The translations under genes and the position numbers were made by a program. From a virus: DNA of 35,696 nt. Numbering within the stretch: position 1 is the stretch's first letter; every line of letters starts with the position of its first letter. The notes beneath the pieces were generated by a model. It was not told the origin of the DNA. It did no database searches and saw only the letters and a list, made by a program, of their open reading frames with translations. Shown here in pieces: positions 1 through 34,372 of this stretch. Where the stretch lies: positions 1 to 35,696 of IMG/VR virus record IMGVR_UViG_3300038463_000128; one strand, written 5' to 3'.

Positions 1-127
1 CTATTTTCCGATGCATTGAAATCAACTTCCATTAATGCATTATCGGAACAGCCTGCCCATGAATCAATGCAATGGACTTCTATGTCCCATTGTCTTGCAA
101 ATTTGTTTATAAACCATGTCGTACTTC
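1..127. repeat. Direct terminal repeat, left copy
   Basis: These 127 bases are identical to 35570-35696. A length of exactly 127 matches a common maximum assembler k-mer, so I read it as the overlap of a circular contig and not as a biological terminal repeat. P22-type headful packaging gives circularly permuted DNA, which assembles this way. Joining the ends restores a split gene. Confidence 0.95.
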
Positions 128-245
128 GACCTTCAAAAGATCCAATCTCTAAGAATCTTTTCGGTGCATCCATTGGAACAATCATGTTCCACACACTTTG
201 AACTAGTGGAGAAAACCATGCATTTGTGAATTGATATTCACTCAT
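1..245 (-). CDS. SAM-dependent methyltransferase, N-terminal part (gene crosses the contig ends)
   Basis: This is the first part of a gene that continues at 35569 and ends at 35137, giving 225 codons on the circle. The start is an ATG at 243-245, overlapping the TGA of the GroES gene (ATGA), so the two are translationally coupled. Residues 31-42 (FLEIGSFEGRST) are the glycine-rich SAM-binding loop of class I methyltransferases. The acidic residue after strand 2 is in HCIDSWAG (residues 58-65). The arrangement fits the Methyltransf_24/CmcI-like group. These act on small molecules, sugars or other substrates, and the substrate here cannot be told. The second part carries the YVDANH and IFDDY motifs. 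Confidence 0.88.
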   Translation of the reverse strand, partial: MSEYQFTNAWFSPLVQSVWNMIVPMDAPKRFLEIGSFEGRSTTWFINKFARQWDIEVHCIDSWAGCSDNALMEVDFNASEN

Positions 246-544
246 GTTAGCACCGCAAAAATATAATTCTCTCTAATCATTTCGTATTTCTTCCCTCTTA
301 AAGTTAAGTCTGTGCCCTTCATATTTGTGCCGATTAAAATCTTATCCCCAGGCTTTACTCCTAGAGGAATAACTTTAGTGTTTTTCTCATTATGCCAACC
401 TTCTCCTACTGCAATCACAGTAGCTTTTCTTGGTTTCTCTTGAGCAGTTTCGGGAATAATAATTCCACCGAAAGTTTTCTCTTCTGGGTCTGCTAGTTCA
501 ACTAAAATTTGTTCTCGTAGTGGTTTAATTAAATGTCTAATCAC
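242..544 (-). CDS. groES: Phage-encoded GroES-like co-chaperonin
   Basis: A 100-residue protein, the normal size of a Cpn10. The N-terminal strand (IKPLREQILVEL), the mobile-loop signature (EEKTFGGIIIPETA, residues 22-35), the VIAVGEG strand and the C-terminal EMIRENYIFAVL all align with bacterial GroES. Co-chaperonins cap GroEL and set its cavity; T4 Gp31 is the known phage case, needed to fold the major capsid protein. Start is GTG at 542-544, overlapping the TGA of the upstream gene (GTGA). No GroEL gene is present, so it would have to work with host GroEL. It sits in the early leftward operon, so it would be made before the coat protein. Confidence 0.93.
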   Translation of the reverse strand: MIRHLIKPLREQILVELADPEEKTFGGIIIPETAQEKPRKATVIAVGEGWHNEKNTKVIPLGVKPGDKILIGTNMKGTDLTLRGKKYEMIRENYIFAVLT

Positions 545-975
545 GGTATTAACCCCGCTCGTTTAATCAAAGGCATTTTACCATTCATGTGAGCTGGAAT
601 CTCGGGTAACTTTTTCATAGCTTCTCTGTAAATAATAGAAACCTTCAGAGGCTCTTTAAATCTCAAATTAATATCGTTTAGCTGAGTGAGTGGCTTTTTG
701 TTTTCAATATCGGATATTCGCTTTCCATGATCAGCGAATAAACCATCAGATACAGTTTTGATTGCTTTTAATTCTTGAACAAGTTCTGAATTAGATTCGT
801 TTACTTTGTCTAAAGTATCCTGAACAATTTTAAGAGATGCTTTCAAATCTGATGTCGTCTCTTTTAATTCTTTTGATGCCCCATCGTTTCTACTTACAAA
901 AAGATAAGCGGCTAGTATTAAAAATACGACCGCTATAAGTAAAACTATACCGTCCATAAAAACCTTCCCTTTCAT
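541..975 (-). CDS. Membrane-anchored coiled-coil protein, function unknown
   Basis: 144 residues. Residues 8-27 (DGIVLLIAVVFLILAAYLFV) form one strong transmembrane segment, followed by about 65 residues of charged, heptad-like helix (SKELKETTSDLKASLKIVQD onward) and a basic, proline-containing tail. This is the general shape of an inner-membrane i-spanin or a membrane scaffold, but the gene lies in the early operon, far from the holin-like cluster, so I do not call it a spanin. It overlaps both neighbours by 4 bp and lies directly after a 27-residue membrane peptide, suggesting the two are made together. Confidence 0.75.
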   Translation of the reverse strand: MKGKVFMDGIVLLIAVVFLILAAYLFVSRNDGASKELKETTSDLKASLKIVQDTLDKVNESNSELVQELKAIKTVSDGLFADHGKRISDIENKKPLTQLNDINLRFKEPLKVSIIYREAMKKLPEIPAHMNGKMPLIKRAGLIP

Positions 976-1055
976 TTACCTTTTCCTCTCAAAAAACAAA
1001 TCAACAGAATAACTGCTAAAAACCAAGTAGCCAAAACTACTAGTTTATAATTCAT
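972..1055 (-). CDS. 27-residue single-pass membrane micropeptide
   Basis: A complete frame beginning MNYKLVVLATWFLAV and ending CFLRGKGK. The start ATG (1053-1055) overlaps the TGA of the helicase-loader-like gene, and its own TGA (972-974) overlaps the ATG of the coiled-coil membrane gene, so it fills the gap exactly with an ATGA at each end. It has one hydrophobic helix of about 18 residues, with positive residues at the C-terminal end. Perfect fit between coupled neighbours is the main evidence that it is translated. Its function is unknown; regulation of its membrane neighbour is only a guess. Confidence 0.7.
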   Translation of the reverse strand: MNYKLVVLATWFLAVILLICFLRGKGK

Positions 1056-1447
1056 CTTTCTAATACAAATTGACCATTGTCTACCCATTTTGGAAATGAA
1101 GGTATAACTTTGGACCCAATTGAACATGTGCATTTAAAAACATATTGAGAAGAGTGCTTTTCATTTATTGGATATCCAAACAATAACCCGTCACTACAGA
1201 CTCCACATGAACCTGCAATTGATTTTTCTTCATTAAAACTAAATGGAATAAGATTTTTTAATTCTGCGATAGAAGGAAATGGCGAGTTAGATTTTCTAGT
1301 TATTAAAAGTCTGTCCAGGGCCTTAGCGACTCTGCCATATCCCCTATTAGATATTTCTTTGTCATATAGTTCTATTTGATATTCGTCCAAATTATGATGG
1401 CAAATTTGAGCGAGTATCGCTAGACGCTTCAAGAATTCTGCTTTCAT
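1052..1447 (-). CDS. Putative helicase-loader-type replication protein with zinc site
   Basis: 131 residues. The N-terminal half is a small helical domain (ICHHNLDEYQIELYDKEI ... VAKALDRLL ... FPSIAELKNLIP) of the type seen in phage helicase loaders (G39P and lambda P-like): two helices, a variable loop, then 'PFPSIAEL'. The C-terminal half carries CGVC and a later CTC (residues about 80-110), consistent with one zinc site. It lies directly downstream of the initiator-like gene, overlapping it by 56 bp, the usual place for a loader. Start is ATG at 1445-1447 with GGGAAG upstream. There is no phage helicase or polymerase gene here, so it would recruit host DnaB. The family call is by pattern, not by search. 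Confidence 0.6.
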   Translation of the reverse strand: MKAEFLKRLAILAQICHHNLDEYQIELYDKEISNRGYGRVAKALDRLLITRKSNSPFPSIAELKNLIPFSFNEEKSIAGSCGVCSDGLLFGYPINEKHSSQYVFKCTCSIGSKVIPSFPKWVDNGQFVLER

Positions 1448-2207
1448 TAACTTCCCTTTCTATTTCTCTTTGTTCTGATTTTTTTAAATAATTAGAAACC
1501 ACAGATGCATTGTGATCCATTGATTCGGTAGCCGCTGCTGTTACTGAAGTAACTTTCTTACCGCTAGACCATTCCATAAAAAGCTTTTCACAGTCCTTAA
1601 GACAAATACCTATAGAGTGGCCCTGTCTTACATACCAACGGTCATTGTGACTGACATAAAACTTAACTACTTCGATAGCGTGCTCTTCTCCAAGCCTTTT
1701 TATTAGATTAGTAATCTGAGAGTTAACCGTAGCGTTTCTTTTGGGCTCAACTTTGTATCGAGCCTTAAAGCTAGAAGAGTAAGAAGACCACACGGTCACA
1801 GATGCCTCATTTTTGAGGCTCTGTGGAAAGGTAGTTGTATTGTTTTGTATTGTATTGTTTTGTATTGTAGGTGTAGTGGACTCAGTTTTAAATGTAGTGG
1901 ACTCAGTTTTAAATTCAATGGTGTGGTTTTCTTTAAGGATTTCAAGCATTTCTAAAATTGACTTTTCATCAACGTTAGCTATGCATGCAAGTCGGTTGGG
2001 GCGAAACTTAATTGTCTTTGAATCTTGTGAACAACACAAGCCCAGAAGGCAAACCCAAGCCCATTTTTGGGCCGGGCTCAAACCAACAAGGCCAGATGAG
2101 TTAGTCATGTCTTTGTTGATTCTAAACCAATATGGATTTCGTTCTCTTATACTTTTAGGTTGAAAATAATCCCATTTAGGCACAGTGACAGTAATCTCCC
2201 CAGACAT
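1392..2207 (-). CDS. Replication initiator / replisome organizer-like protein
   Basis: 271 residues. Residues about 32-95 look like the winged-helix N-terminal domain of phage replisome organizers (PYWFRINKDM, then WAWVCLLGLCC ... RLACIANVDEKSILEMLEIL). A low-complexity linker (FKTESTTFKTESTT, TIQNNTIQNNTTT) separates this from a helical C-terminal half (about residues 130-215). The linker is encoded by direct DNA repeats that look like an origin, as in lambda gene O. The next gene is a helicase-loader-like protein, again as in lambda O-P. Start ATG is at 2205-2207. Residues 176-193 (EVVKFYVSHNDRWYVRQG) are typical of the C-terminal domain in such initiators. Confidence 0.72.
   Translation of the reverse strand: MSGEITVTVPKWDYFQPKSIRERNPYWFRINKDMTNSSGLVGLSPAQKWAWVCLLGLCCSQDSKTIKFRPNRLACIANVDEKSILEMLEILKENHTIEFKTESTTFKTESTTPTIQNNTIQNNTTTFPQSLKNEASVTVWSSYSSSFKARYKVEPKRNATVNSQITNLIKRLGEEHAIEVVKFYVSHNDRWYVRQGHSIGICLKDCEKLFMEWSSGKKVTSVTAAATESMDHNASVVSNYLKKSEQREIEREVNESRILEASSDTRSNLPS
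1835..1914. repeat. Iteron-like direct repeats inside the initiator gene: candidate replication origin
   Basis: Two sets of exact tandem repeats lie side by side. On the plus strand a 15-bp unit (TTGTATTGTTTTGTA) occurs twice at 1835-1849 and 1850-1864 with a partial third to 1869, and a 21-bp unit occurs twice at 1872-1892 and 1893-1913. The first set is an asymmetric AT-rich tract that could melt easily; the second could be protein-binding iterons. Position within the coding linker of the initiator gene mirrors lambda ori in gene O. The repeats stay in frame (5 and 7 codons), so the protein tolerates them. Confidence 0.6.
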
Positions 2208-2339
2208 ATTCCCTCGATGCTTTTTTGTTCTCGCGAATTGACAGAGAAATAAAATTGAAGTATTTATTTGAATGTCACCGCAAATGACAAGTTACGACCG
2301 GGGTCTAGTAAATGTCAAATTGAAAAGCCCTGGTTTATT
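2208..2339 (-). promoter_or_regulatory. 132-bp gap before the initiator gene with repeated TGACA/TGTCA sites
   Basis: No gene fits here. The pentamer TGACA or its complement occurs four times in alternating orientation, at 2239-2243, 2273-2277, 2285-2289 and 2313-2317; the middle two form TGTCACCGCAAATGACA. Minus-strand TTGACA at 2318-2313 and TTGTCA (2290-2285) are possible -35 boxes, and an AT-rich stretch follows the second. I infer an internal promoter for the replication genes with operator-like sites; no single -10 box is convincing. Confidence 0.4.
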
Positions 2340-3083
2340 TTATTTTTCGTAGTCCTCAAACGACTTATCGTATGGATATCCACCGGATTCTTCAGACTCA
2401 ATAACGGGATTTTTAACTTTTGAAACTAGAATAGGCTGATGTTTCCGACCGTCTTGCCAGTTTCGACACCAGTAGCGCACGCCGTCTTTTGAAATTACCA
2501 TCTCTTCATTACAGGTCTTGCAATGTGGGAAACCATCATCTGGCCTTGAAGGTTGGGCAGTAGCCTCGGAAGCTTCTTTTAAAATCTCTTGTGGCTTCGC
2601 AATAGCCTCTTTGGGAAGAGTTTCCACTTCAGTCTCATCCAACATACCCAAACCACAAATTGAGAGTGTCACGCGCCTTTTAGCCTTAGTTTCACATTTC
2701 ATTATGGTATTGGCCTTTGATTCGCCAACAAGACCTTTGATTACTACGGCACCAACCGACTCGTCGTGTCTACCATCAGGCATTGATGCTTTAGCAGTTA
2801 CTATGAATACGTCCTCTTGAATTTCTCTAGAGGTTATGTCGATTGAAATCTTATGAATGGACCTCAATTGTTCGGCGGTATTCTTGCCAGCGTATAAGAC
2901 TTGTTTGCCATTCATATTTATGTATTGAAAAGGTACAGTGATGGGATTTAGACCGACTGAAAAACAAACCCTATTATAGTGCTCTAGCTTATCTTGTTCG
3001 GTAAGTTTTGAGAGGTCTCCGTACATTAGAGCCTTGTTTATGGCATCCAGATTAATTTCTTTTTGAGTTACTGCTTTTGACAT
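2340..3083 (-). CDS. Putative single-strand annealing / recombination protein with C-terminal zinc ribbon
   Basis: 247 residues. The core (about 10-160) has a conserved phage pattern: VGLNPITVPFQYI, then KNTAEQLRSIH, a VTAKASMPDGR strand, GAVVIKG and KCETKAKRRVTLSICGLGM followed by DETEVE. I recall this block from phage proteins in recombination/replication clusters and suspect a Redbeta/RecT-like annealing role, but the family name is not certain. Residues about 187-212 (HCKTCN ... RYWCRN) form a zinc-ribbon-like site. It sits between the Gp157-like gene and the replication initiator, as annealing proteins often do. Start ATG at 3081-3083 follows AAGGAAG. Confidence 0.55.
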   Translation of the reverse strand: MSKAVTQKEINLDAINKALMYGDLSKLTEQDKLEHYNRVCFSVGLNPITVPFQYINMNGKQVLYAGKNTAEQLRSIHKISIDITSREIQEDVFIVTAKASMPDGRHDESVGAVVIKGLVGESKANTIMKCETKAKRRVTLSICGLGMLDETEVETLPKEAIAKPQEILKEASEATAQPSRPDDGFPHCKTCNEEMVISKDGVRYWCRNWQDGRKHQPILVSKVKNPVIESEESGGYPYDKSFEDYEK

Positions 3084-3641
3084 TTATTTACTTCCTTTGT
3101 TTAAAAAGCTACGAACATGAGAGCCACTTTCAATGTGAGCTCCTGCAATTGTCTCTCCAGATTTGAGGGCTTCTTTTAAAAGATCAGAGCGAATAATTGT
3201 CTTTTGCACAACTTCTTTGAATTTAGAGGGCACTTGAGCTTCGTCGTCCACAACAAGCGACGGAGCATTATTCACAAGCTTCCATTTGTAATCTCGCCCA
3301 ACAATCTCATCAACGCCCAATTCAATACAAGCCATCTTAAGAGAGTATTTCATACTGTCGGTATAGCTTAGAAATGCCTTAGCAACGCGAGAGAAGTTAG
3401 CGGCGCGCTCATTCCATAAATCAGCTTGTGATTTGAGATCATCTATAACGTGTTTGTAGGCATCACATTTCTCTGGAATCTTTTCGTGTAGCTTCGATAA
3501 AGATTTCTCAATATCTAAAGTAATCTCTCCAGCGTTCTCAATGAGAATTTCTTGTATTTTGTGTGAGAGTTGAACTAGTTCGAAAAGGGATTCATCTCGT
3601 TTAATTGGTATATTATTAGATTTCGTAGTTTTCTCGTTCAC
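3084..3641 (-). CDS. Gp157-like phage protein (Sipho_Gp157 family)
   Basis: 185 residues from a GTG at 3639-3641 placed 6 bases after a GGAGG ribosome site; an upstream in-frame ATG at 3680 would lie deep in the previous gene and lacks such a site. The long helical region (about 20-120) is followed by the family's signature order: WKLVNNAPSLVVDDE, then QVPSKFKE, SDLLKEALKSGE and IAGAHIESGSHVR. Gp157-like proteins accompany phage recombination genes and have been linked to phage resistance, but their biochemical role is not settled. It overlaps the preceding zinc gene by 26 bp and ends just before the putative annealing protein. Confidence 0.85.
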   Translation of the reverse strand: MNEKTTKSNNIPIKRDESLFELVQLSHKIQEILIENAGEITLDIEKSLSKLHEKIPEKCDAYKHVIDDLKSQADLWNERAANFSRVAKAFLSYTDSMKYSLKMACIELGVDEIVGRDYKWKLVNNAPSLVVDDEAQVPSKFKEVVQKTIIRSDLLKEALKSGETIAGAHIESGSHVRSFLNKGSK

Positions 3642-3798
3642 GGCTAGCCTCCAATAATTGTTCTTCATATTCCAAATCATCCATGTAAATCAGAGAATCT
3701 TCTGACTTACATCTGGCGCAGAGTTCATAAGTTTCAAAATCTTCGACCTTAGTTATAACCTCGGGATTTATATGGCCACATTCATTGCATAGAATCAT
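3616..3798 (-). CDS. Small zinc-ribbon protein
   Basis: 60 residues with two CxxC knuckles, CNEC at residues 4-7 and CARC at 27-30, which together would bind one zinc ion. The C-terminal half is acidic (MDDLEYEEQLLEASRERE). It overlaps the next gene upstream by 17 bp and the Gp157-like gene downstream by 26 bp. The partner (DNA, RNA or protein) is not visible in the sequence. Confidence 0.75.
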   Translation of the reverse strand: MILCNECGHINPEVITKVEDFETYELCARCKSEDSLIYMDDLEYEEQLLEASRERENYEI

Positions 3799-3979
3799 AA
3801 ACTTTTGGCCTCACTTTTTTAGCGAACATCACTTTACATTTTCTGCAAGACCTATGTCCCTTAGGGCTTCTAATTGTGTTTTCTTCATCGTATGGATGCT
3901 TGCGAGGGCAATGAGTTTTAGCTCTTTGTCTCAATCCAGATGCTTTACCCATAAGCAATACTTTTTCATAAGGTGTCAT
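3782..3979 (-). CDS. Small zinc-finger protein, HNH-associated type
   Basis: 65 residues. The motif HCPRKHPYDEENT followed by GHRSCRKCK (residues 23-49) is the C-x(2)-(G/K)H-x(n)-C-x(2)-C zinc knuckle that often precedes HNH nuclease domains in phage proteins. No HNH catalytic residues are present, so it is at most the zinc-binding half. Its ATG overlaps the TGA of the upstream gene (ATGA at 3976-3979). Basic ends suggest nucleic-acid binding. Confidence 0.7.
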   Translation of the reverse strand: MTPYEKVLLMGKASGLRQRAKTHCPRKHPYDEENTIRSPKGHRSCRKCKVMFAKKVRPKVYDSMQ

Positions 3980-4236
3980 TTTTTACTCCAGTTCTTAATC
4001 CACTTCATGCTAGCTTCAGAAGTTGTTTCTTCGGTATTTCTAAATGGACTTATTTCGCTGAAAATTGAATTGAAAAAATCAATCATCGTATCTTCGCAAT
4101 TATTCTTCGCTCCATATATTTGGCATTTGTGAGCAAAGAAATCTCTTAGCTGGCCAAGGATTCTACTCCTTACATCAGATAAGGGTCCTATCATCAGAGC
4201 GGAATCAACGGTTTCAGTAACTGTTTTGTGAGCCAT
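3976..4236 (-). CDS. Conserved-looking early protein, unknown function
   Basis: 86 residues, mostly helical by composition, with two cysteines (KCQIYGAKNNCED) and a tryptophan-rich end (MKWIKNWSKK). I do not recognise a family. The ATG at 4234-4236 is preceded by GGGAGG, a strong ribosome site, in the 17-bp gap after the ribbon-helix-helix gene, so it is the second gene of the leftward unit and would be expressed strongly and early. Confidence 0.65.
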   Translation of the reverse strand: MAHKTVTETVDSALMIGPLSDVRSRILGQLRDFFAHKCQIYGAKNNCEDTMIDFFNSIFSEISPFRNTEETTSEASMKWIKNWSKK

Positions 4237-4253
4237 AACTAGCCTCCCAAAGG

Positions 4254-4409
4254 TTATTTTTTAATCTTTTTTAAAAACTCTTTAATTCCATTTATTAAAA
4301 GATCCCGACATATCTCGCCTGGGTTAAACTTGTTCTTTTTTAAAAGCTCTAGTTCAGCTTTGGTAACCTCTGGGATTCTTATGGTTATCACTGCGGTGTT
4401 TTTTCTCAT
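4254..4409 (-). CDS. Ribbon-helix-helix (Arc/CopG-type) DNA-binding regulator
   Basis: 51 residues. The N-terminal strand AVITIRIPE (residues 6-14) is followed by two helices (VTKAELELLKKN and NPGEICRDLLINGIKEFLKK), the classical ribbon-helix-helix fold that dimerises through the strand and reads the major groove with it. Size matches Arc (53 residues) of phage P22. It is the first gene of the leftward unit and lies beside a divergent promoter with a perfect palindrome, its obvious operator. I infer it controls the lysis/lysogeny or early/late choice. No CI-like repressor is visible in the window. Confidence 0.82.
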   Translation of the reverse strand: MRKNTAVITIRIPEVTKAELELLKKNKFNPGEICRDLLINGIKEFLKKIKK

Positions 4410-4467: not shown

Positions 4468-4487
4468 GATTTTGAAGTGAGGTGACT

Positions 4488-4748
4488 ATGAAATATTTAC
4501 TCGTTCTACTAATTCTAATCCCAATTTCGGCTAACGCTCAATGGGTTCAAATGCCAAGAGCTACGTTTGTTCCTATGCAGGTTCCTACTTACCAACCGGT
4601 ACCGGTATACAATCCTCCCGCCTACATCCCAATTCAATCGGCTCCAATATATGTGCCGCCCAGACCGATGCCTGTATACAACAATAGCGCTACCCATATC
4701 GGTTGTATGCGCAATGGATCTGGTGGATATAGTTGTTTAAGTAATTGA
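4488..4748 (+). CDS. Small secreted proline-rich protein
   Basis: 86 residues from ATG 4488 (GAGGTGA at 4476-4482); an in-frame GTG at 4482 overlaps the ribosome site and is unlikely. MKYLLVLLILIPISANA is a clean signal peptide with an ANA-Q cleavage site. The mature part is rich in proline, tyrosine and valine (YQPVPVYNPPAYIPIQ), with two cysteines near the end (GCMRNGSGGYSC) able to form a disulfide. It is the first gene under the operator-controlled rightward promoter, just before integrase, so it may be a lysogenic-conversion protein acting in the periplasm or envelope. This is inference from position and signal. Confidence 0.72.
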   Translation: MKYLLVLLILIPISANAQWVQMPRATFVPMQVPTYQPVPVYNPPAYIPIQSAPIYVPPRPMPVYNNSATHIGCMRNGSGGYSCLSN

Positions 4749-4749
4749 G

Positions 4750-4770
4750 ACAGGTGATCTACCTGTGTAA
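4750..4770. repeat. Junction inverted repeat, copy before integrase
   Basis: ACAGGT-GATCT-ACCTGT with GTGTAA after it: 6-bp perfect arms, 1 base past the stop of the secreted-protein gene. No T-run follows on the plus strand, so it is not an ordinary rightward terminator. Same family as the repeats at 31.3-35.2 kb and in the same plus-strand alignment. Confidence 0.8.
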
Positions 4771-4823
4771 AAATTACAATAACTGGTCTAGATTGTCCTT
4801 AAATGACAGCGTAGCCTTAATTT

Positions 4824-5690
4824 GTGACTATCGATGAGCTCTTTGCCAAATGCTTCGCAGATCACTGGGATAGTCCAAGATTCAACCTATCAGGGCACGC
4901 GCTAGAAGTTCGAGCCAAATACAAAAATCATATAAAACCAGTTTTCGGAGCAATTGATTACCTATCGGTAACTCGCGTTCAAATTAGAGACTTCCATAAA
5001 TCATTTGCAAAAACCCCAGTCACAGGCAATAGGTTACTCGAAATCATATCCAAACTCTATAAATTCAGTATCGAGCGAGAATGGAATGCCGGCGGCTTTA
5101 ATCCGGTCATTGGCATTAAGCACTTTACTGAGAGAAAAAGGCGACGTTATGCCTCAGAAACGGAAATCAAAAAAGTCGGGGAAATCCTCGATAAGTTGTA
5201 TAAAACACAACCTCTTGAAATCACTTTTCTCTACACACTCCTCTTCACGGGAGCTCGCCCTCGCTCTATTGAACGTTCTAGATGGTCGGAGTTTACAGAG
5301 TCTTCGGGCTTCGGAGTACTCGTCTTTGATGGCAAAAGCACAGAAGCTACGGGAGACCCTGAATCGGTCATACTCCCACCAAAGATAATGGAATTGATCC
5401 ATAAGTTGCCGAAACGATCGGATGGCCTTATTTTTGGTATTCCTTCACCTGGTTACCTGTTTAGGAAAATAAGGAAAGAAGCTGGATGCGAGGACCTTTG
5501 GCTGAGAGATTTTCGCAGAACTTTTGCAACTGTTGGCATGAGCAATAAAGTTGATATGAAAGTAATCGGAAAGCTCCTGAACCATCATTCAACGCAAACG
5601 ACCGACCGCTACGCCTTGCTCGATGATTCTGCCAGGCTCGAAGCCGTGACCGCGATATCCGCTAAGCTTGATTCAATTCTTAAGAAGTGA
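4824..5690 (+). CDS. int: Tyrosine recombinase / phage integrase
   Basis: 288 residues from a GTG at 4824; a TAA two codons upstream in frame excludes an earlier start. Residues 1-100 form a SAM-like core-binding domain, and 105-285 the catalytic domain. Catalytic residues visible are R145 (TGARPRS), K171 (FDGKST), R231 (DFRRTF), H254 (LLNHHS) and nucleophile Y263 (DRYALL). The usual histidine of the H-x-x-R motif is Arg228 (LRDFRR). There is no extra arm-binding domain, so it is shorter than lambda-type integrases. It recombines phage attP with a host attB. It is bracketed by two copies of the junction inverted repeat. Confidence 0.93.
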   Translation: MTIDELFAKCFADHWDSPRFNLSGHALEVRAKYKNHIKPVFGAIDYLSVTRVQIRDFHKSFAKTPVTGNRLLEIISKLYKFSIEREWNAGGFNPVIGIKHFTERKRRRYASETEIKKVGEILDKLYKTQPLEITFLYTLLFTGARPRSIERSRWSEFTESSGFGVLVFDGKSTEATGDPESVILPPKIMELIHKLPKRSDGLIFGIPSPGYLFRKIRKEAGCEDLWLRDFRRTFATVGMSNKVDMKVIGKLLNHHSTQTTDRYALLDDSARLEAVTAISAKLDSILKK

Positions 5691-5692
5691 GG

Positions 5693-5713
5693 CAGGTCAC
5701 CGACCTGTGTGAA
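5693..5713. repeat. Junction inverted repeat, copy after integrase
   Basis: CAGGT-CACCG-ACCTG followed by TGTGAA: 5-bp arms, starting 3 bases after the integrase stop. Together with the copy at 4750 it brackets the integrase gene. Arms match, spacers differ, so the arms are what is conserved. Confidence 0.78.
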
Positions 5714-6979: not shown

Positions 6980-7082
6980 TATTAATCTTTACATAAATAG
7001 TCTAGTTAGCCGATATAATAATTATAGGGGGGGAGTACACCCTTTGGAGCTTTTTGAGTTTGGAGGTGTACGACACGTTTAA
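6980..7082. promoter_or_regulatory. Divergent gap between DUF5675 and GIY-YIG genes
   Basis: Holds a rightward -10 match TATAAT (7014-7019) without a good -35, a leftward TATAAT (7026-7021), a run of seven G (7027-7033) and an inverted repeat GTACACC (7035-7041) / GGTGTAC (7065-7071). It most likely carries back-to-back promoters with an operator or leader hairpin on the right side. Confidence 0.45.
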
Positions 7083-7547
7083 ATGGATCTGAAGGAAAAA
7101 TCTAAAGAATATTATGTCTATCAGTTGATAGACCCTCGAAATGGGGAAGTGTTTTATGTAGGCAAGGGCAAAGGGAAAAGAATGAAACAACACGTTCCCG
7201 CTGCCAAAAGAGGGAATTCTGATAACCCGAGAAAGACCCTAAGGATAAGAGAAATTATTAATGACGGCTTCGAGGTGAAATACTTCGTTTATGCCAAGGA
7301 TCTTTTAGAATCAGACGCATTTGATATAGAACGCGAGCTTATTAAAGAAATTGGTAGAGAAAAGCTTACTAATTATCATTCCGGCGTAAATACAGTCAAA
7401 GAACAAGCAAAACTTCTATTGAAAAGATTGAAACCTATTCGTAAATGGGCAGCCGATAAATATGCCAATGGCGGTTATACGATAGAAGATTTAAAACGAT
7501 ACAAATCTCTCGCTAGTTTTTATAGAAGAATGGCCAGACATGGCTAA
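7083..7547 (+). CDS. GIY-YIG nuclease-domain protein
   Basis: 154 residues. Residues 10-38 carry the GIY-YIG signature in its LEM-3/ANKLE1-like form: YYVYQLIDP then EVFYVGKGKGKRMKQH, with the conserved lysine/arginine and histidine after YVGKG. Downstream ERELIKEIG (about 88-96) supplies the conserved glutamate region. The C-terminal third is basic and helical (LKRLKPIRKWAADK). It would cleave DNA, either as a free-standing homing-type nuclease or in packaging, where phages often keep a nuclease gene beside terminase. It overlaps the small terminase gene by 8 bp. Confidence 0.82.
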   Translation: MDLKEKSKEYYVYQLIDPRNGEVFYVGKGKGKRMKQHVPAAKRGNSDNPRKTLRIREIINDGFEVKYFVYAKDLLESDAFDIERELIKEIGREKLTNYHSGVNTVKEQAKLLLKRLKPIRKWAADKYANGGYTIEDLKRYKSLASFYRRMARHG

Positions 7548-23795: not shown

Positions 23796-25582
23796 CGGCT
23801 CAATTACTTCCAAACGTATATCAGCAATTCTTTGGAATAACTGGAACGTTTACAGGCCTTCCTTTAGTAGGGGGCCTTCTTTATTCTTATCAAGCGGGAA
23901 CTTCGACGCCACAAGCGACGTATACTGATGAGACTGCTCTAACAGCAAACACAAATCCCATAGTTTTAAATTCTGTAGGTGCCGCGAATATTTGGATGAG
24001 TGAGAATTCCTATAAGTTCGTGCTCACAGATTCTCTAGGTGTGGTTCAATGGACCGTCGATAATGTTAAATATATCAATCTAGGCACAATTGATAAAACC
24101 ATGCTCGCAGATGATATAGCTGGACTTGGGCTATATCAAGACGGGACGGGGGCTTTGAATGCCGATGTCGATAACGTCACAATTGGAATAAATGGAAGTA
24201 ATGAGCTAGCTATTGTCGCACAATCATTAACTCCAAATAATTTCAATCCCAATAATGTAATGGAAGTTCTTTACAAATATGTGAGGGATTTTTCGGATCC
24301 TGGATCTATAAGACAAATTCCTCAATATGAATGGACGACGCCTACGCTTTTTGGCGGCTTCGGTAATGCTCCAACAAGTGCTGGAATTGCGAAATGGTGT
24401 CCAAGCGGAGAATTTTTAGCCGTTGGAAATGGAAGTTCCGCTTATTTAAACATTTATCAATTAGATGAAACTCAAGGAACATTAATAAATATTGGTCAAC
24501 CGGTATCACTTCCAACAAGCGGAGTTGTTAGCATTACCTGGTCGCCGTGTGGAGACTTCTTAGCTGTTGCAACAGTTAGCACTCCTTGGATTTATATTTA
24601 TCAAAAAGTTGGAGGAACTTTTAATCTGCTTCCAACTCCTTCATCTCTGCCAACTGGAGTTTCAAACATATTTGGAACATTTGTTGAGTTTTCTCCTAAC
24701 AGCGATTATTTGGGTCTTTCTTGGCAATACAAAAATATTGCTGGACAGACTGAGTTTGGATTTATTCTCTATAAGAGAGGGGGGTTTTTATCTGTAACCA
24801 ATACGGTTCCGGTCTCAACTCCAGTAGGCGTTGATTTTTCTGGAACTGGAACTGATTATTATGTAACAGGGGCAGCTAGCGGAGGATCTGATCCTACAAT
24901 AACCTACGCTGGCACTATTACTCCAAGTAATATTGATATACAAAATAACGGTGTTTTATTCACAGATATAACAAGTGCTGCCGGTTTGAGTGGTTTAACC
25001 GGTAACAGTGCTGGATTTCAATTCAAATGGTCTCATGATTCATCTTATTTGGCGATGTATGACCACAGTTCTCAAGTTATTGACATGTATTTCAGATCCG
25101 GAGATCAATTTACTGGTTTCACAGCTCCAGTTCTTAGCTCATATGTAGGAGATATATTTGATTTCGCATGGTCACCTGATGGGAATTTCTTTTCAGTTTT
25201 ATTAGCAGTCACTCCCTTTATATTGAATTTTCAAGTTGTAGAAGGAACGTTTACTCAACTATCAAATCCTCCAGTGTTAACGGCAGATTCAGGATCAGGA
25301 CTTTCTTGGTCACCTAATAGCGAATATTTAGCCTATGGGACAGGAAGCTCACCATATCTAGCAGTTTATAAAGTAACAAATCCAACGAGTACACCGGTTT
25401 TCACAATACAAGCCAATTTGAATACTCTTCCAGTGGGTTTACTTACAAATATTAGCTGGCATCCTACCAAGAAATACATAGCCCTTGGAAATACCGTAAC
25501 TCCATATGTTCAGGTCTATCAGACAGCTTCGGTCCTTCCTTCAAATGCATTTATATGGACGAGAGGAGTTCCAAATGTCTGA
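23792..25582 (+). CDS. Tail fibre with N-terminal anchor and seven-repeat beta-propeller
   Basis: 596 residues. Residues 4-92 (LLPNVYQQFFG ... YKFVLTDSLGVVQWTVDNV) are a virion-anchor domain shared with the next gene. From 198 to 577 a motif recurs seven times, each with a strand ending W/F-S-P-x-G/S-x-(Y/F)-L/I, then A-V, then a strand ending IYQ/VYK: 198-223, 246-270, 296-327, 409-434, 456-481, 503-527 and 552-577. This spacing is that of WD40/YVTN-type propeller blades, so a seven-bladed propeller is predicted. Blade 3-4 has a large insertion (about 330-405). The propeller probably binds the receptor. It replaces the usual P22 tailspike. Confidence 0.82.
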   Translation: MTAQLLPNVYQQFFGITGTFTGLPLVGGLLYSYQAGTSTPQATYTDETALTANTNPIVLNSVGAANIWMSENSYKFVLTDSLGVVQWTVDNVKYINLGTIDKTMLADDIAGLGLYQDGTGALNADVDNVTIGINGSNELAIVAQSLTPNNFNPNNVMEVLYKYVRDFSDPGSIRQIPQYEWTTPTLFGGFGNAPTSAGIAKWCPSGEFLAVGNGSSAYLNIYQLDETQGTLINIGQPVSLPTSGVVSITWSPCGDFLAVATVSTPWIYIYQKVGGTFNLLPTPSSLPTGVSNIFGTFVEFSPNSDYLGLSWQYKNIAGQTEFGFILYKRGGFLSVTNTVPVSTPVGVDFSGTGTDYYVTGAASGGSDPTITYAGTITPSNIDIQNNGVLFTDITSAAGLSGLTGNSAGFQFKWSHDSSYLAMYDHSSQVIDMYFRSGDQFTGFTAPVLSSYVGDIFDFAWSPDGNFFSVLLAVTPFILNFQVVEGTFTQLSNPPVLTADSGSGLSWSPNSEYLAYGTGSSPYLAVYKVTNPTSTPVFTIQANLNTLPVGLLTNISWHPTKKYIALGNTVTPYVQVYQTASVLPSNAFIWTRGVPNV

Positions 25583-26252
25583 GTTAGCTCCGGCATTTAG
25601 ACAGCAGTATTTTGATGCGAATGGATTGCCTTTAGCTGGAGGTTTTTTATATACTTATGCTGCAGGTACATCGACGCCGCTTGCGACCTATACCGATGAG
25701 ACTGGGCTTACTCCAAATACAAATCCAGTTGTTTTAGATTCTTCTGGACAGGCTTCAATATGGATTGGTCCAAGTTCATATAAATTTGTCCTAGAGGATT
25801 CTCTAAATAATGTTATTGAAACTGTAGATAACATTCAAAGTATTGCATCTCAAATTTTAGCATTATCATCAAGCTTTGATAGTGTGTCTGTTGCTTACAC
25901 TCAACTTCAAACTTCTGGAACTTCAAAAAACGTAGCCCTATTCACATTGCCAGCAGGATATATCTTAAAGAATATCGTCATAAAACACTCAACTAATTTC
26001 ATTGGAACTAGCATAACTGATGTTTATGCTCAAGTAGGGCCTACTGGTAATTTTACAGAGTTTATTAATCAATTTGATCTTTATCAATCAGTAGCGGATC
26101 AGTCATTTGATAACTCGACAACTGACTATATTGGATCGTGGGCAAACCCAACGATTATTTATTTGAATGCTGTGTCAACTGGAGCAAATCTTAGCGCTCT
26201 ATCTCAAGGATCAGTAACTGTTTATTATGAAATTGAAAACATGGTAGGGTAA
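25575..26252 (+). CDS. Second tail fibre/adaptor protein with the same anchor domain
   Basis: 225 residues from ATG 25575 (GAGGAG at 25562-25567), overlapping the propeller gene by 8 bp. Residues 4-88 repeat the anchor of the previous protein (AGTSTPLATYTDETGLTPNT, SYKFVLEDSLNNVIETVDN), and the DNA is similar as well, so a duplication. The remaining 135 residues are beta-rich (NVALFTLPAGYILKNIVIKH, ITDVYAQVGPTGNFTEF) and look like a jelly-roll. It could compete with or sit beside the propeller fibre on the same tail site. Confidence 0.78.
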   Translation: MSELAPAFRQQYFDANGLPLAGGFLYTYAAGTSTPLATYTDETGLTPNTNPVVLDSSGQASIWIGPSSYKFVLEDSLNNVIETVDNIQSIASQILALSSSFDSVSVAYTQLQTSGTSKNVALFTLPAGYILKNIVIKHSTNFIGTSITDVYAQVGPTGNFTEFINQFDLYQSVADQSFDNSTTDYIGSWANPTIIYLNAVSTGANLSALSQGSVTVYYEIENMVG

Positions 26253-28463
26253 ATGAAATATCTATTATTTATAGTATGTAATCTAGTATGGACTATAGCT
26301 CTGGCCCAACAAGGTGGAGTTTTCAATTACCTAACCCTAAATCCAAATTCACTACCCTCGAAATGTGGAAGTGGAACGCTTAGATTCTCATCTGGAAGCT
26401 CAACACTTAATCTTTGTTATCCTGCAAATACATGGACGGCAGTTGGGTCTGGCGGAGGTGGAGGAGTGAGTTCTGTGGCTCTTGCCGATGGCTCATCTAC
26501 TGCTATTTACTCAATTACTGGAAGTCCGGTTACTGGAAGCGGAACTTTAACTTTCAGTGCAAAAAATCAATCTGCTAATACTGTTTTTGCAGGTCCCAGT
26601 TCTGGCGGAGCTACTGACCCTACATTTAGATCACTTGTAGCCGCTGATATACCAACAACACTTAACACAACAACCGAATCTTCGCTCACAACAGTCGGAA
26701 CAATTGGAACTGGCATTTGGCAAGGAACCAAGATTTCTTCAACTTATGGTGGAACTGGGATAAATTCAGGATCATCAACTGGAGTTCCTTTTATTTCTTC
26801 TGGAGCTTGGGGTGTTGATACAACTTTACCGAACACTCTTGGTGGAACTGGGCAAGGATCAAACTTTAATCAATACGGGGCTTGTTATGCTCCAACCACG
26901 ACAACCTTAGGAACAACATCGGCTGGAACAGCAAATTACCCTTTAGTGGCTAACTCTTCGGCTGCACCTACATTCCAACTTTTACCAATAGCTGGAGGTG
27001 GAACTGGAGCTGCAATATCTGCTACTCAATGGGGTGTTCCATACTTCTCTGCTACGACAACTATGGCTTCTACTGCTGCGGGGACTCTTGGAAATCCATT
27101 AATAAGTGGAGCAACAGGGGCGCCTTCGTTTAGCGCAACGCCTACAATTGCCAATATCATCGATACCTCAAACGTTTTAAATATCGAAGACAGTACAACA
27201 AATAGTAAGGTCTTGGCGTTCAATGCTAGCAATAACTCTGCATCTACAACGCTTACTCTAGAGCCAACTCAAACAACTTCTCAGATTTTGAAATTCCCAA
27301 ATATAACAGCAGGTGATTCGGTTGCAACACTTGGACTTGCTCAAACATTTGCAAATGCTCAGACATTTACAAGCGCTCCTGTCTTCTCATCAGTCACGGC
27401 GAGTCAGGCTCTAACAGTAAATGGAAGTAAGGCACTCACATCAAACGCTTTTAGCTCTTCCCCAGCAGCATCTACTATTGCCGAATGGGATGCTAATAAA
27501 AATATGTCTTTTGACTCTTATATCCCTGCAGGCACTTCAACTGCTACCGCTGCCGGGACTACAGCCTTATTGGTTGGGAGTAACTATTATCAATTTTTCA
27601 CTGGGTCAACAACTCAGACAGTAACATTGCCAGTTGTAACAGGACTTGCTCAAGGGCAAGGGTTTGAAATATTCAATCTTTCAACTGGCGTTGTAACTGT
27701 AGAAAGCTCTGGAGCAAACGTAATACAGGCGATGGCGGCGAATACTGTTCTTAAACTTGTATGTATAAATACGAGCGGCGGCACAGGGACAGCATCATGG
27801 TCTTGGATGTATGAATCAGCTCAAGGATCATTGCCAGCAGGGTTTTCTGGACTTAATACAAACGGAATTATTTACGCAACAAGTGGAACGGCGGTTAGTT
27901 CTACGGCGGTAGGGTCAAGTGGAAGTGTTTTAACTTCTAATGGTGCCGGAGTTGCTCCTACATTTCAAGCTGCAGCAACATCAGTAACTGGGTCTTATTT
28001 TTCTGGCAGTACTGTGAATAGTCCTACAGTTGGCTGGGTATATTCTACAACGGCACTAGCTGACCCATCAACTACCTCGACAAACACCTTAACGACTAGA
28101 AAATCATCTGGTATTACGGTAACAGCTGCGGCTGGTAGTTTACCTGGGATTGTTTTTACTCCAGGCAGTAGCTCACAAGTTTTTCAAATAACCGCTAGTT
28201 TCACTTACGGTGGCGTGGCGAGTTCGGGAGACGATCCCTCATTTAGCCTCACAGACGGCACAACAATAATAAGCACGAGAGATTCACAGCCGGGGGCAGT
28301 TTCAAGCTTCCCGTCAATGACCCTAACTGGGATATATGCGCCTGCAAATACTTCGGCAAATACAATTAAAATTCAAGGCGCTGTTAATGCCGGAACTATA
28401 GCGATTATAAGCGCAGGGTCTATTGTTCCCTCTATTGAATGGACAGTTATAAGAATTTTCTAA
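26253..28463 (+). CDS. Large fibre-like protein with an N-terminal signal peptide
   Basis: 736 residues. MKYLLFIVCNLVWTIALA followed by QQGG is a standard secretion signal, unusual for a virion fibre, which assembles in the cytoplasm. The body is rich in T, S, G and A with repeated fibre motifs (GGTG at several places, GTLGNPLISGATGAPSFS, VLTSNGAGVAPTFQA) and a two-cysteine module near the start (SKCGSGTLRF ... NLCYPANTW). The C-terminal 120 residues are a beta-rich globular part. Either it is a fibre whose hydrophobic N-terminus is used for virion attachment, or a secreted surface protein of the infected cell. Its last 141 bp overlap the convergent O-antigen gene. Confidence 0.7.
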   Translation: MKYLLFIVCNLVWTIALAQQGGVFNYLTLNPNSLPSKCGSGTLRFSSGSSTLNLCYPANTWTAVGSGGGGGVSSVALADGSSTAIYSITGSPVTGSGTLTFSAKNQSANTVFAGPSSGGATDPTFRSLVAADIPTTLNTTTESSLTTVGTIGTGIWQGTKISSTYGGTGINSGSSTGVPFISSGAWGVDTTLPNTLGGTGQGSNFNQYGACYAPTTTTLGTTSAGTANYPLVANSSAAPTFQLLPIAGGGTGAAISATQWGVPYFSATTTMASTAAGTLGNPLISGATGAPSFSATPTIANIIDTSNVLNIEDSTTNSKVLAFNASNNSASTTLTLEPTQTTSQILKFPNITAGDSVATLGLAQTFANAQTFTSAPVFSSVTASQALTVNGSKALTSNAFSSSPAASTIAEWDANKNMSFDSYIPAGTSTATAAGTTALLVGSNYYQFFTGSTTQTVTLPVVTGLAQGQGFEIFNLSTGVVTVESSGANVIQAMAANTVLKLVCINTSGGTGTASWSWMYESAQGSLPAGFSGLNTNGIIYATSGTAVSSTAVGSSGSVLTSNGAGVAPTFQAAATSVTGSYFSGSTVNSPTVGWVYSTTALADPSTTSTNTLTTRKSSGITVTAAAGSLPGIVFTPGSSSQVFQITASFTYGGVASSGDDPSFSLTDGTTIISTRDSQPGAVSSFPSMTLTGIYAPANTSANTIKIQGAVNAGTIAIISAGSIVPSIEWTVIRIF

Positions 28464-29564
28464 TTTAAAACTAATAATTATCAAACAAGCTCCCAAAACT
28501 TGAAACGGAAAAGCTCTTAGTGGCATTTGTGTAAGCCCTATAAATCCGTAAGTACATAGCATCGGAAATAGAGCATTTTTCTTCTTCCATGAACTCAGAA
28601 GTAAACATGAATATAGAATTATAAGGCCAGCTAATCCAATAATTCCCATTTCAAAAAGAACTTGAAGCCAATCGTTATGCATCCAAATAAATAAAGCCTG
28701 CTGACCATTACTCCCCAGAGAATTGTTATTATGCATCTGAATCTCTGGTCCCCACATAAAAAATGTTCCAATTCCAGATCCAATTAATATGTGTGTTTCT
28801 TTTAAGAAGAAATCAAGTGAGCCTTTCCATATTCCATAACGACCATTAGGATTTAGTAACTCATCTTTGAGGTAAATGTAAGCTCCTCCACATATTGCCA
28901 AAGCCAACGGAGCTATTATTTTAAGTGATTTAAGCCCGTATTCCATAAATAAATAAGAGGCGATGGCGATTCCAATCCCTGCAATACCAGTCGAACTCTT
29001 TGAAACTATAATTGCCAAAACCATAGGGATTAGTAAAAATATCCCTTCTAACCACATTATTTCTCTTTTTTTAAAAAACGACAATGCTATAGGAATAAAA
29101 CACGCAATAAAAGACGCATCAATTGCAGAGTTTGACATCATTGCGTAGCACTGATCTGGGCCATAAATTACAGATCTAACTAACATCCAAATTGAGTCAA
29201 TTACAGCTATAGCAAAAAGGATGGTGAATATATTTTTAAACGCATCTTTGTTCAGCAACAAAGGTAACATTCCAAATAGCAATAATGTGATGTACGTGGA
29301 AACAGTTATTGCAGCGATTTTAAGGTGATAGCCTTCTGGAAGAGTATGTTGGTAAATGTCTTGATTGTTCATGAGTAGTAAAACGGAACTCGCCGAGATT
29401 AAGAACATGAGGCCCACTGACCAATGGATCTTTTTTAATCTCCAGGCTAGCAATAACGTTATAAGTCCTAGGCCAATGTCAGATTCGTAGAAAACTCGGT
29501 TTGTACAATTCGGAAATAAAATGAAGGTCAAAAACATTAAACTCGTTATGATCAATATAGGCAT
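28323..29564 (-). CDS. O-antigen polymerase/ligase-like membrane protein (Wzy/WaaL type)
   Basis: 413 residues with about ten hydrophobic helices. The large periplasmic loop has the Wzy_C pattern: NGRYGIWKGSLDFFL, then ILIGSGIGTFFMWG, a histidine-bearing HNNNS segment and WMHNDWLQVLFEMGIIGLAG. Enzymes of this type join O-antigen units or ligate them to lipid A core. In a temperate phage it would change the host's O-antigen and so block superinfection, as known for D3 and P22-type conversion. The last 47 residues, downstream of the final helix, are read antisense to the fibre gene and may be non-functional. GGGG at 29570-29573 is the ribosome site. Confidence 0.85.
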   Translation of the reverse strand: MPILIITSLMFLTFILFPNCTNRVFYESDIGLGLITLLLAWRLKKIHWSVGLMFLISASSVLLLMNNQDIYQHTLPEGYHLKIAAITVSTYITLLLFGMLPLLLNKDAFKNIFTILFAIAVIDSIWMLVRSVIYGPDQCYAMMSNSAIDASFIACFIPIALSFFKKREIMWLEGIFLLIPMVLAIIVSKSSTGIAGIGIAIASYLFMEYGLKSLKIIAPLALAICGGAYIYLKDELLNPNGRYGIWKGSLDFFLKETHILIGSGIGTFFMWGPEIQMHNNNSLGSNGQQALFIWMHNDWLQVLFEMGIIGLAGLIILYSCLLLSSWKKKNALFPMLCTYGFIGLTQMPLRAFPFQVLGACLIIISFKLENSYNCPFNRGNNRPCAYNRYSSGINSALNFNCICRSICRRIYPS

Positions 29565-31311: not shown

Positions 31312-31335
31312 ACAGGCGCTAAGCCTGTGTTAAAA
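31312..31335. repeat. Junction inverted repeat
   Basis: ACAGGC-GCTAA-GCCTGT with GTGTTAA after it (plus strand); 6-bp perfect arms. Includes the stop codon (31330-31332) of the 59-residue leftward gene. Confidence 0.82.
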
Positions 31336-31509
31336 AACATCAGCATAAAACTGAGTTATCAGGGCTTCAAATGCATCTCTTGCGACTTGTGTTCCTTCGC
31401 CACTCTCATGCTCAATCCAATAAGAGCCATCTGATAATTCTCTGATTTCGTATTGGCCTACTGTAATTAAGTTTCCGTTGCCCTTCACAAAGTCGCTTAT
31501 TCTCTCCAC
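31330..31509 (-). CDS. 59-residue early protein
   Basis: GTG start at 31507-31509, inside a junction repeat; the frame begins MERISDFVKGNGNLITVGQY and continues EIRELSDGSYWIEHESGEGT to a helical end. 'EIRELSDGSYWIE' is the kind of two-stranded motif found in small phage proteins I have seen but cannot name. Codon use is even and the frame fills the gap between neighbours, so it is very probably real. Confidence 0.7.
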   Translation of the reverse strand: MERISDFVKGNGNLITVGQYEIRELSDGSYWIEHESGEGTQVARDAFEALITQFYADVF

Positions 31510-31525
31510 AGGCTATAAACCAGGC
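31508..31525. repeat. Junction inverted repeat, degenerate
   Basis: ACAGGCTATAAACCAGGC: GGC/ACC arms only. It supplies the stop (31513-31515) of the 61-residue gene and the GTG start of the next. Confidence 0.6.
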
Positions 31526-31919: not shown

Positions 31920-31940
31920 ACTGGTTTCAATCCTGGTTAA
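31919..31940. repeat. Junction inverted repeat, degenerate
   Basis: ACTGGTTTCAATCCTGGTTA region; GG/CC arms around an A/T centre. Includes the stop (31937-31939) of the 27-residue membrane peptide and the start of the 74-residue gene. Confidence 0.6.
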
Positions 31941-32669: not shown

Positions 32670-32814
32670 TTTCAGAAGCTCTCCTCATTAAGTTTTTCCA
32701 TTTGCCAGGATTGGCCAATCTCCATTCTTTCAAACGTTCCTTGTTCCAATCCGGATTCGCTTTCTGCTTCCGGTAATAATATGCCTTCCATTTTGCCCTC
32801 TCTTTTTCTTTCAT
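32467..32814 (-). CDS. Basic protein resembling HNH-associated phage proteins, overlapping two other frames
   Basis: 115 codons from ATG 32814 (MKEKERAKWKAYYYRKQKAN). Pattern W/Y-rich basic repeats (PDWNKERLKEWRLANPGKWK) is like the N-terminal part of phage HNH-type nucleases, and KARRKDPCFGLRREISEFRK follows. It overlaps the last 48 codons of the sigma-like gene and about 60 codons of the next gene, so either this frame or those ends are noise. I judge it more protein-like than the overlapped ends. No catalytic HNH residues are clear. Confidence 0.4.
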   Translation of the reverse strand: MKEKERAKWKAYYYRKQKANPDWNKERLKEWRLANPGKWKNLMRRASENGLHRRFYANHREELKRKKSAIGAKARRKDPCFGLRREISEFRKTLDFGKFIEELGHRVDGIDKKSK

Positions 32815-33295
32815 TCCAGGCTTCCGCCTTAATTCGCGCTGATAAGCGGCCCTGAAGGCTTTGGAGCCTCTGAGATACCCTTGATTCACTAACTCCAAAG
32901 AGATTGCCGATCTCAACTTCATTAAATCCCCAGTAATGATTCAAGAGGAACATCGCCCTTTCGACACCCCTAAAATATCCGAGTATATCAAAAGCATACG
33001 ATCTATTTGGTGATTCAGTTCCAAACTGTCCTGGATGTTCAATAAAGTATTCTTCGAAGCTGAGTCGTTTAAGAGTGAATGCCTGCCTAAGATCATAGCT
33101 AGGTTCCCCCTTTCGACCATAATTAGACCGTAAATAATCGATAACAGCTTGTTCACAGGTTGCATGTTTATGCCTGCCTTCGAGCATTCGCGTGAGAACT
33201 GCCTGACTAATTTCCTCTGCTTCAGATCCAAACCCAAGTATGGAAGCACTTGCTTTAAGTCTTTTAAGGAGGTGCGCGGCTGTTTTGTCATCCAA
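32672..33295 (-). CDS. Sigma-70-family-like factor
   Basis: 207 codons from a TTG at 33293-33295, 7 bases after AAGGA; an ATG 4 bases on is in another frame. Residues 24-60 (SEAEEISQAVLTRMLEGRHK, then CEQAVIDYLR) resemble sigma region 2, and 112-150 (RAMFLLNHYWGFNEVEIGNL, FGVSESRVSQRLQSLQGRL) is a clear region-4 helix-turn-helix. Region 3 is absent as in small sigma factors. In a phage it could redirect host RNA polymerase to late promoters. It is made from the early unit. The last 48 residues are doubtful (overlap). Confidence 0.68.
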   Translation of the reverse strand: MDDKTAAHLLKRLKASASILGFGSEAEEISQAVLTRMLEGRHKHATCEQAVIDYLRSNYGRKGEPSYDLRQAFTLKRLSFEEYFIEHPGQFGTESPNRSYAFDILGYFRGVERAMFLLNHYWGFNEVEIGNLFGVSESRVSQRLQSLQGRLSARIKAEAWNERKREGKMEGILLPEAESESGLEQGTFERMEIGQSWQMEKLNEESF

Positions 33296-33313: not shown

Positions 33314-33336
33314 ACAGGTGGATAACCAGTGTTAAA
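33314..33336. repeat. Junction inverted repeat
   Basis: AACAGGTGGATAACCAGTGT then TAA: GGT/ACC arms. Includes the stop (33332-33334) of the DNA methyltransferase gene. Close match to the copy at 32346. Confidence 0.78.
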
Positions 33337-34072: not shown

Positions 34073-34102
34073 CTACTTTTCAACAGGTTGGAAACCTTTC
34101 AT
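34073..34102 (-). other. 9-codon frame made by a junction repeat
   Basis: ATG (34100-34102) to TAG (34073-34075) encodes MKGFQPVEK. It lies between the glycine-repeat gene and the methyltransferase gene. The tail GFQPVEK is a short version of the repeated TG-x-x-P-x-EKE ending. No strong ribosome site; translation unproven. Confidence 0.3.
34083..34099. repeat. Junction inverted repeat
   Basis: ACAGGTTGGAAACCTTT: AGGTT (34085-34089) and AACCT (34093-34097), perfect 5-bp arms with a 3-bp loop. Confidence 0.75.
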
Positions 34103-34105
34103 AAA

Positions 34106-34372
34106 TCAGCCGTCGCCGTAGCCGTAGCCGGAGCCGGAGCCGTAGCCGTAGCCGGAGCCGTAGCCGGAGCCGTCGCCGTAGCCGTAGCCGGAGCCGGAGC
34201 CGTAGCCGTAGCCGGAGCCGTAGCCGTCGCCGTAGCCGGAGCCGTAGCCGGAGCCGGAGCCGTAGCCGTAGCCGGAGCCGGAGCCGTAGCCGGAGCCGGA
34301 GCCGTAGCCGGAGCCGTAGCCGTCGCCGTAGCCGTAGCCGGAGCCGGAGCCGTCATTTTTTAACTCTTCCAT
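34106..34372 (-). CDS. Gly-Tyr/Ser/Asp dipeptide-repeat protein
   Basis: 88 codons: MEELKND then 40 consecutive Gly-X pairs with X = Tyr, Ser or Asp, ending GYGYGDG. It starts inside the end of the DUF6948-like gene (13-bp overlap). Such G-[YSD] repeats occur as parts of phage proteins that usually carry a further globular domain; here the repeat is almost the whole protein. Likely disordered. Function unknown; repeat number may vary between isolates. Confidence 0.7.
   Translation of the reverse strand: MEELKNDGSGSGYGYGDGYGSGYGSGSGYGSGSGYGYGSGSGYGSGYGDGYGSGYGYGSGSGYGYGDGSGYGSGYGYGSGSGYGYGDG
34109..34354. repeat. Hexanucleotide tandem repeat, about 40 units
   Basis: Units GTAGCC, GGAGCC and GTCGCC (plus strand) follow one another without break. 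Only two positions of the hexamer vary, and three variants exist. All reading frames stay open through it, which makes false genes on both strands. Much more GC-rich than its surroundings. Confidence 0.95.

Follow-up and report, generated by a model that had tools for sequence, protein, structure and literature searches.

The window (the whole stretch of DNA analysed, 35,696 nucleotides, positions 1 to 35,696 of the IMG/VR virus record IMGVR_UViG_3300038463_000128) carries on its plus strand a tyrosine integrase gene between two short palindromes, ACAGGT-GATCT-ACCTGT at 4750-4766 and CAGGT-CACCG-ACCTG at 5693-5707. Both had been pointed out in an earlier sequence-only reading, are present as described and directly follow stop codons, namely TGA 4746-4748 plus G and TGA 5688-5690 plus GG (a gap of 1-2 nt). 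The integrase is XerD/phage-like and scores well below the NCBIfam cutoffs. The window also encodes a P22-like portal and, because its ends overlap by 127 bases (a perfect direct terminal repeat, 1-127 = 35570-35696), it probably represents a circularly assembled or circularly permuted, near-complete phage genome of 35,569 bp. The features at the integrase locus, where the 7-nt core of each linker is treated as its address, are as follows:

4482-4748 (+): small gene with a signal-peptide-like start; ends at the upstream linker just as the integrase gene does at its own
4750-4766 (+): linker after the small gene; core TGATCTA, an address not seen in the other three linker-bearing phages
4824-5690 (+): tyrosine integrase gene; phrog_1 (4e-35), PF00589 above cutoff
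5692-5708 (+): linker after the integrase; core TCACCGA, an address not seen in the other three linker-bearing phages

A family of linkers at gene 3' ends

The two palindromes are members of a family of gene 3'-end linkers. Read in gene direction, these have the consensus TRANACWGG-N7-CCWGT, after which come a purine-rich stretch and, in most cases, the next start codon; the stop codon of the integrase is the TRA of its own linker. The sequence CAGGTN5ACCTG occurs in three exact copies in the window (4751, 5693 and 35148) and, when up to two mismatches are allowed, in 28 copies against 9.5 expected, a number that none of 100 shuffles reached. The strict motif CWGGY-N5-RCCWG is found seven times in the 9.3-kb leftward unit (0.08 per shuffle), once in 25 kb of late genes and not at all in the core early genes (window 1-4400), hence the copies single out two regions, the accessory portion of the leftward operon far from its promoter (31.3-35.2 kb) and the two plus-strand genes at 4482-5690. 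The linkers of the leftward array are:

35148-35162 (-): array linker; core TTCAAAA, also in G001 and G007; in-frame fusion, C-terminus SGSKPEGK then stop
34987-35001 (-): degenerate array linker; core TCCGGAC; fused, EPGPDPKDEK then stop
34679-34693 (-): array linker; core TCCGGAA, also in G001; fused, DTGPEPVEKETIKGEK then stop
34084-34098 (-): array linker; core TTTCCAA, also in G001 and G007; mini-ORF MKGFQPVEK then stop
33361-33375 (-): linker-like copy; core TTCGAGA; at the C-terminus of a DNA methyltransferase, where homologues in other phages end
33315-33329 (-): array linker; core TTATCCA, also in G001 and G007; directly past a stop codon
32347-32361 (-): array linker; core TTCTCAG, in all four phages; directly past a stop codon
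32034-32048 (-): array linker; core TTCGGAG, in all four phages; fused, DTGSEPIEEGKCS then stop
31921-31935 (-): degenerate array linker; core ATTGAAA
31709-31723 (-): array linker; core TGAGAGA; fused, DTGERPGEKE then stop
31509-31523 (-): array linker; core TTTATAG; gene stop inside the linker, distal arm still conserved
31313-31327 (-): array linker; core CTTAGCG; directly past a stop codon

Past the methyltransferase, two linkers stand in tandem (33315-33375, minus strand, cores TTCGAGA and TTATCCA), as if the gene had been brought in with a linker of its own. The gene at 34106-34372 (-) is built of 12-bp repeats coding for GSGYGYGDG-like repeats and ends in an in-frame TGA, after which the linker mini-ORF MKGFQPVEK follows; for the array gene at 32672-33295 (-), weak NCBIfam matches point to a likeness with sigma-70 family factors.

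Being palindromic, the CWGG/CCWG core gives no orientation on its own. The sequence-only reading had aligned both integrase-side copies with the leftward copies in plus-strand orientation, against the gene direction, and had taken this as an argument for a DNA-level role. This argument falls, because a flank model built from 41 array linkers, oriented by the direction of their genes, places both linkers with their own plus-strand genes (11.2 on the plus strand vs 2.1 on the minus strand, and 4.5 vs -6.7). The integrase and the small gene preceding it appear to be two more units that end in a linker, each with its own address.

There are two main ways in which an upstream gene enters its linker. 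Genes entering in frame 0 read through it as TGxxP(V)(E/K) and end between +17 and +44, in many cases at a stop that overlaps the next start, while genes entering in frame 2 stop at the built-in TRA (-5 to -3), which is used by the integrase, the 4482-4748 gene and three array genes of the window. At some junctions there is nothing but a mini-ORF (MIKTGSQPVKEKE in G006, for example), which gives the look of an emptied cassette. Two cassette genes have homologues in linker-free phages, and these stop at the point from which the linker tail runs on: CPECRAGMKET in Cronobacter phage CR8 stands against CPECKSGFQPESKTIKGE in the G001 gene at 6982-7209, and AKNRIMETITKGCV or AKDRILSNEP, the ends of other homologues, against AKARIAGSRPSVQLDMMSV at the end of the window methyltransferase. 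These homologues show the tail to be something added to the cassette genes. A programmed +1 frameshift into a TGxxPVEK tag was considered and rejected, since fusion in frame is the commonest case, since the arm stays conserved even at genes that end within the linker, and since the TRA is a built-in stop of another frame.

Linker cores and gene content in four phages

The linker sample consists of four phages, namely the window, G001, G006 and G007. A search of IMG/VR with the integrase returned a single close relative, the 27.8-kb phage G001 (L003), whose integrase is 83% identical and whose leftward unit holds 15 strict copies (0.05 expected). Pattern scans with individual linker cores led to G007 (L039), a 17.4-kb fragment with 7 strict copies, and to G006 (L038), an otherwise unrelated phage of 47.9 kb with 2 linker copies, in which the only cassette is flanked by TTCTCAG and then TTCGGAG, the usual order. 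Across the three arrays, the strict motif is enriched ~85 to 300 fold (7, 15 and 7 copies vs 0.05-0.08 per shuffle). Single pattern hits in L040-L042 were discarded as chance-like, as was a host genome as the source of the linkers, for which a pattern scan of genome contigs gave only single chance-like matches. Two linker queries against isolated phages (INPHARED) returned chance-level matches only, DUF6948-bearing phages had no linker arrays, the genome-contig search with the integrase gave no relative, and no second integrase relative adjoining linkers was found. The searches for relatives brought up neither a near-identical phage pair differing by one cassette nor a cassette-free relative of G006, which was sought for a clean insertion comparison.

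Within a genome, the N7 core is different at every position (12/12, 18/18 and 9/9 distinct), which is not significant alone, as repeats are rare by chance (estimated from per-pair rates). Between genomes, the cores recur in order: the window and G001 both have TTCAAAA, TCCGGAA, TTTCCAA, TTATCCA, TTCTCAG and TTCGGAG in this sequence, G007 follows the same order with TTCAAAA, TTTCCAA, TTATCCA, TTCTCAG and TTCGGAG, and further along, TCCTAAA and CTAAACA are common to G007 and G001. The number of shared cores is 6 vs 0.52 expected by chance for the window and G001, 7 vs 0.34 for G001 and G007, and 5 vs 0.26 for the window and G007, these pairwise counts not being mutually independent and G001 and G007 coming from the same metagenome. 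All shared cores are collinear, with order P values of 0.0014 (window-G001), 0.00045 (G001-G007) and 0.0076 (window-G007).

In 24 pairs of linkers with the same address, the identical block is mainly GG-N7-CC; because the groups were set by exact 7-mer identity, core identity follows by construction, whereas the loss of similarity outside it does not. Agreement falls to 0.17-0.46 at positions -12 to -6 and is mostly 0.25-0.6 downstream, where two positions are higher; on both sides it exceeds that of different-address pairs only slightly. The slight conservation of the downstream flank over background is consistent with a ribosome-binding role as well. The W position on each arm flips between A and T. 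Where the linker is fused to a gene, all 69 of 69 comparisons of third codon positions within the core show identity, while the W edge sites, also third codon positions, agree in 33/48, with the reservation that these comparisons are not independent and that the groups were defined by the core. At several genes whose stop lies ahead of or within the linker, the distal arm is intact though untranslated. The fixed third positions, the free W sites and the distal arm kept past stops together point to conservation of the core at the DNA level.

Notable short blastn matches between the arrays lie mostly at linkers, and tblastx of the linker-bearing parts found no gene homology past the linker junctions themselves. 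Among all array ORFs, phmmer detected one shared protein (window-G007), which is located outside the linker-bearing part. Since the linkers match in order and the genes between them lack homology, gene content has been fully replaced between conserved, ordered junctions. As short conserved junction sequences with non-homologous genes on their flanks in different phages, the linkers agree with phage boundary or linker sequences. An identical stretch, AAACTATAAAAGGAGAA, follows linkers of unequal address in the window (34647-34976, TCCGGAA) and in L003 (6982-7209, TTTCCAA), hinting at exchange between linkers of unequal address.

In a comparison of all ORFs of the window and G001, the integrase is the sole shared protein, the other matches being shadow ORFs of the integrase, and DNA homology is limited to the integrase ORF, ending 9 bp before the right linker. 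The integrase therefore moved as a unit between otherwise unrelated phages. Although the integrase sits between linkers in both phages, its stop codon in G001 is immediately followed by a tRNA-Asn gene rather than by a directly adjoining linker, and the nearest G001 linkers are at least 180 bp away, at the distal end of the array. A tRNA-Asn gene is located near the distal array end in both L003 (4359-4432) and L039 (7627-7700), the two being identical at just 36/74 positions.

Possible functions of the linkers

We propose, with a probability of roughly 0.6, that the linkers are ordered, address-coded gene-end junctions for the exchange of cassettes. Each site combines common palindromic arms, ACWGG ... 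CCWGT, with a position-specific 7-nt core serving as the address. Directly ahead of the arms one reading frame contains a built-in TRA stop, while another is read as a short TGxxPVEK tail to a stop that overlaps or lies near the next start. We infer that the sites act as crossover points at which accessory cassettes are swapped between co-infecting phages, whereby matching cores would keep the order and the built-in stops would leave the upstream gene properly ended. A DNA-level role in cassette exchange had been suggested by the sequence-only reading from the integrase-side pair; it is now well supported for the family as a whole, with position-specific cores whose order is kept across unrelated genes, whereas the argument from orientation is lost and exchange of the integrase inside its own two linkers is no more than a possibility.

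The most likely agent would be short-homology annealing by phage single-strand-annealing proteins, as G001 encodes an Erf annealing protein and G007 a RecE-like exonuclease. In lambda, Erf and RecT recombine diverged sequences, and Rad52-like recombinases of phages can use homologies that are diverged or short (PMC3945230), but the 11-15 nt of perfect identity offered by the linkers are short for homologous recombination, and pure homology leaves the palindromic arms common to all linkers unexplained. Short-homology exchange is nonetheless rated more likely than the main alternative, in which a tyrosine recombinase, plausibly the integrase common to the window and G001, uses the linkers as its core sites. 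Sites differing in their overlaps would then permit exchange of cassettes between equal addresses only, as a natural form of recombinase-mediated cassette exchange. We regard this alternative as unlikely, and the same holds for its broader form, a natural array of heterospecific sites at which the integrase or another recombinase would swap cassettes between equal addresses only, so that order is kept while content changes completely.

Such core sites have inverted arms around an overlap of 6-8 bp that is identical between partners. The linkers resemble them in anatomy, with inverted arms of 4-6 bp around a unique 7-bp core, which on this reading would be the overlap required to match, and with cores that are fixed while W drifts between A and T. 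A tyrosine recombinase gene is present in two linker phages, the window and G001, where it is the only protein in common, but none was found in G006 or in G007, the latter being a fragment. The tRNA-Asn gene adjoining the G001 integrase has a T-arm, CTGG-TTCGAGT-CCAG, with arms and spacing as in the linkers, and in the mycobacteriophage Ms6, whose attP/attB lies in the T-loop of tRNA-Ala, the identity of a 7-base segment controls recombination (PMC1762012). Ms6 shares with the linkers the inverted arms around this segment, yet it has a single integration site where the linkers form a gene array. Another tRNA-Asn stands at the array end in G007, but its T-stem, GTGG/CCAC, is unlike the linker arms, and the likeness of a T-arm to an inverted repeat is weak evidence. 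No attP was identified, and recombination by an integrase leaves the built-in stops and the reading-frame preference unexplained.

Of the linkers that an upstream ORF enters, most are read in the TGxxP frame, several unfused cases have a mini-ORF with its ATG in this frame, and stops at +23 to +35 coincide with the next start. These features would fit a linker that serves translation above all, or that adds a C-terminal TGxxPVEK tag together with the stop/start overlap, the core order being inherited while genes were replaced by other means. This is improbable, as the untranslated distal arm is conserved at several genes that end before or inside the linker, and a tag has no need of a position-specific code. 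A protein tag as the main function is further disfavoured by the synonymous sites of the core, which never vary among same-address linkers, whereas the W sites at the edges vary freely.

Operators or stoperators at gene ends, bound by a phage DNA-binding dimer, would fit the symmetric consensus with W tolerated in each half, but binding alone does not explain locus-specific spacers in conserved order between phages, and we consider this very improbable. RNA hairpins acting as terminators or as processing or stability elements are rejected: perfect arms let the two copies beside the integrase fold well (-8.3 and -10.9 kcal/mol, z about -2.6), but of 43 linkers 16 pair at the W/W stem position and 27 do not, so that the stem shows no covariation and is evidently not under selection, the three array copies examined were no more stable than most of their shuffled versions, and no terminator-like site was found at 4750 or 5693.

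Related junction elements and further features of the window

Integron cassette arrays carry an attC site at the 3' end of each cassette. The linkers are like them in having one site per gene 3' end, in one direction, and a tyrosine recombinase in two of the phages, but they show no evident attC consensus or long hairpin, their core order is fixed where integron cassettes are random, and their recombination is a proposal.

Nearest in kind are lambdoid mosaic-boundary linkers, PeSLs and ESAS. Lambdoid phages have conserved boundary (linker) sequences between modules, which have been proposed to guide homologous recombination (discussed in PMC3029335). As in these, the sequences described here are short and placed at gene junctions; they differ in that a shared palindromic frame is combined with an own core per junction, one for each gene of the accessory array, and in that they are common to phages with otherwise unrelated genomes. 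The lambdoid boundaries are not known to have a common frame.

PeSLs (promoter early stem-loops) of T4-like phages are intergenic stem-loop elements said to mediate the shuffling of small genes (cited in PMC4503421). Like PeSLs, the linkers lie between genes and would be tied to gene shuffling, but they show no consistent promoter (4 matches vs 2.8 expected, one of them weak and overlapping 4745-4774), they lack an RNA stem-loop kept by pairing, and their cores are position-specific. Like the linkers, the SAS/ESAS of cluster K mycobacteriophages are repeated gene-boundary sequences, with imperfect inverted repeats and a spacer, at many small genes (PMC3203893). ESAS lie upstream of gene starts, have 17-bp arms and follow the gene family, whereas the linkers lie at gene 3' ends, have arms of ~5 bp and a core that follows the position rather than the gene. 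A common palindromic frame with position-specific, ordered cores was described in none of the accounts returned by a limited open-access literature search.

In the linkers, the junctions of most cassettes can be seen directly, are numbered by their cores and keep their order where the phages share almost nothing else. If the address rule holds, a cassette would enter only where both flanking cores match, a prediction that is directly testable. The linkers also flag accessory genes for discovery, and they could provide a set of mutually incompatible joining sites.

Two observations concern the remainder of the window. A 114-bp repeat, 75% identical between its copies, lies inside two adjacent late genes (23861-23974 and 25629-25742), which probably encode tail fibre or spike proteins. 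Pointing against the late genes, a hydrophobic 413-aa ORF (28323-29564, minus strand) gives the impression of an O-antigen ligase or polymerase.
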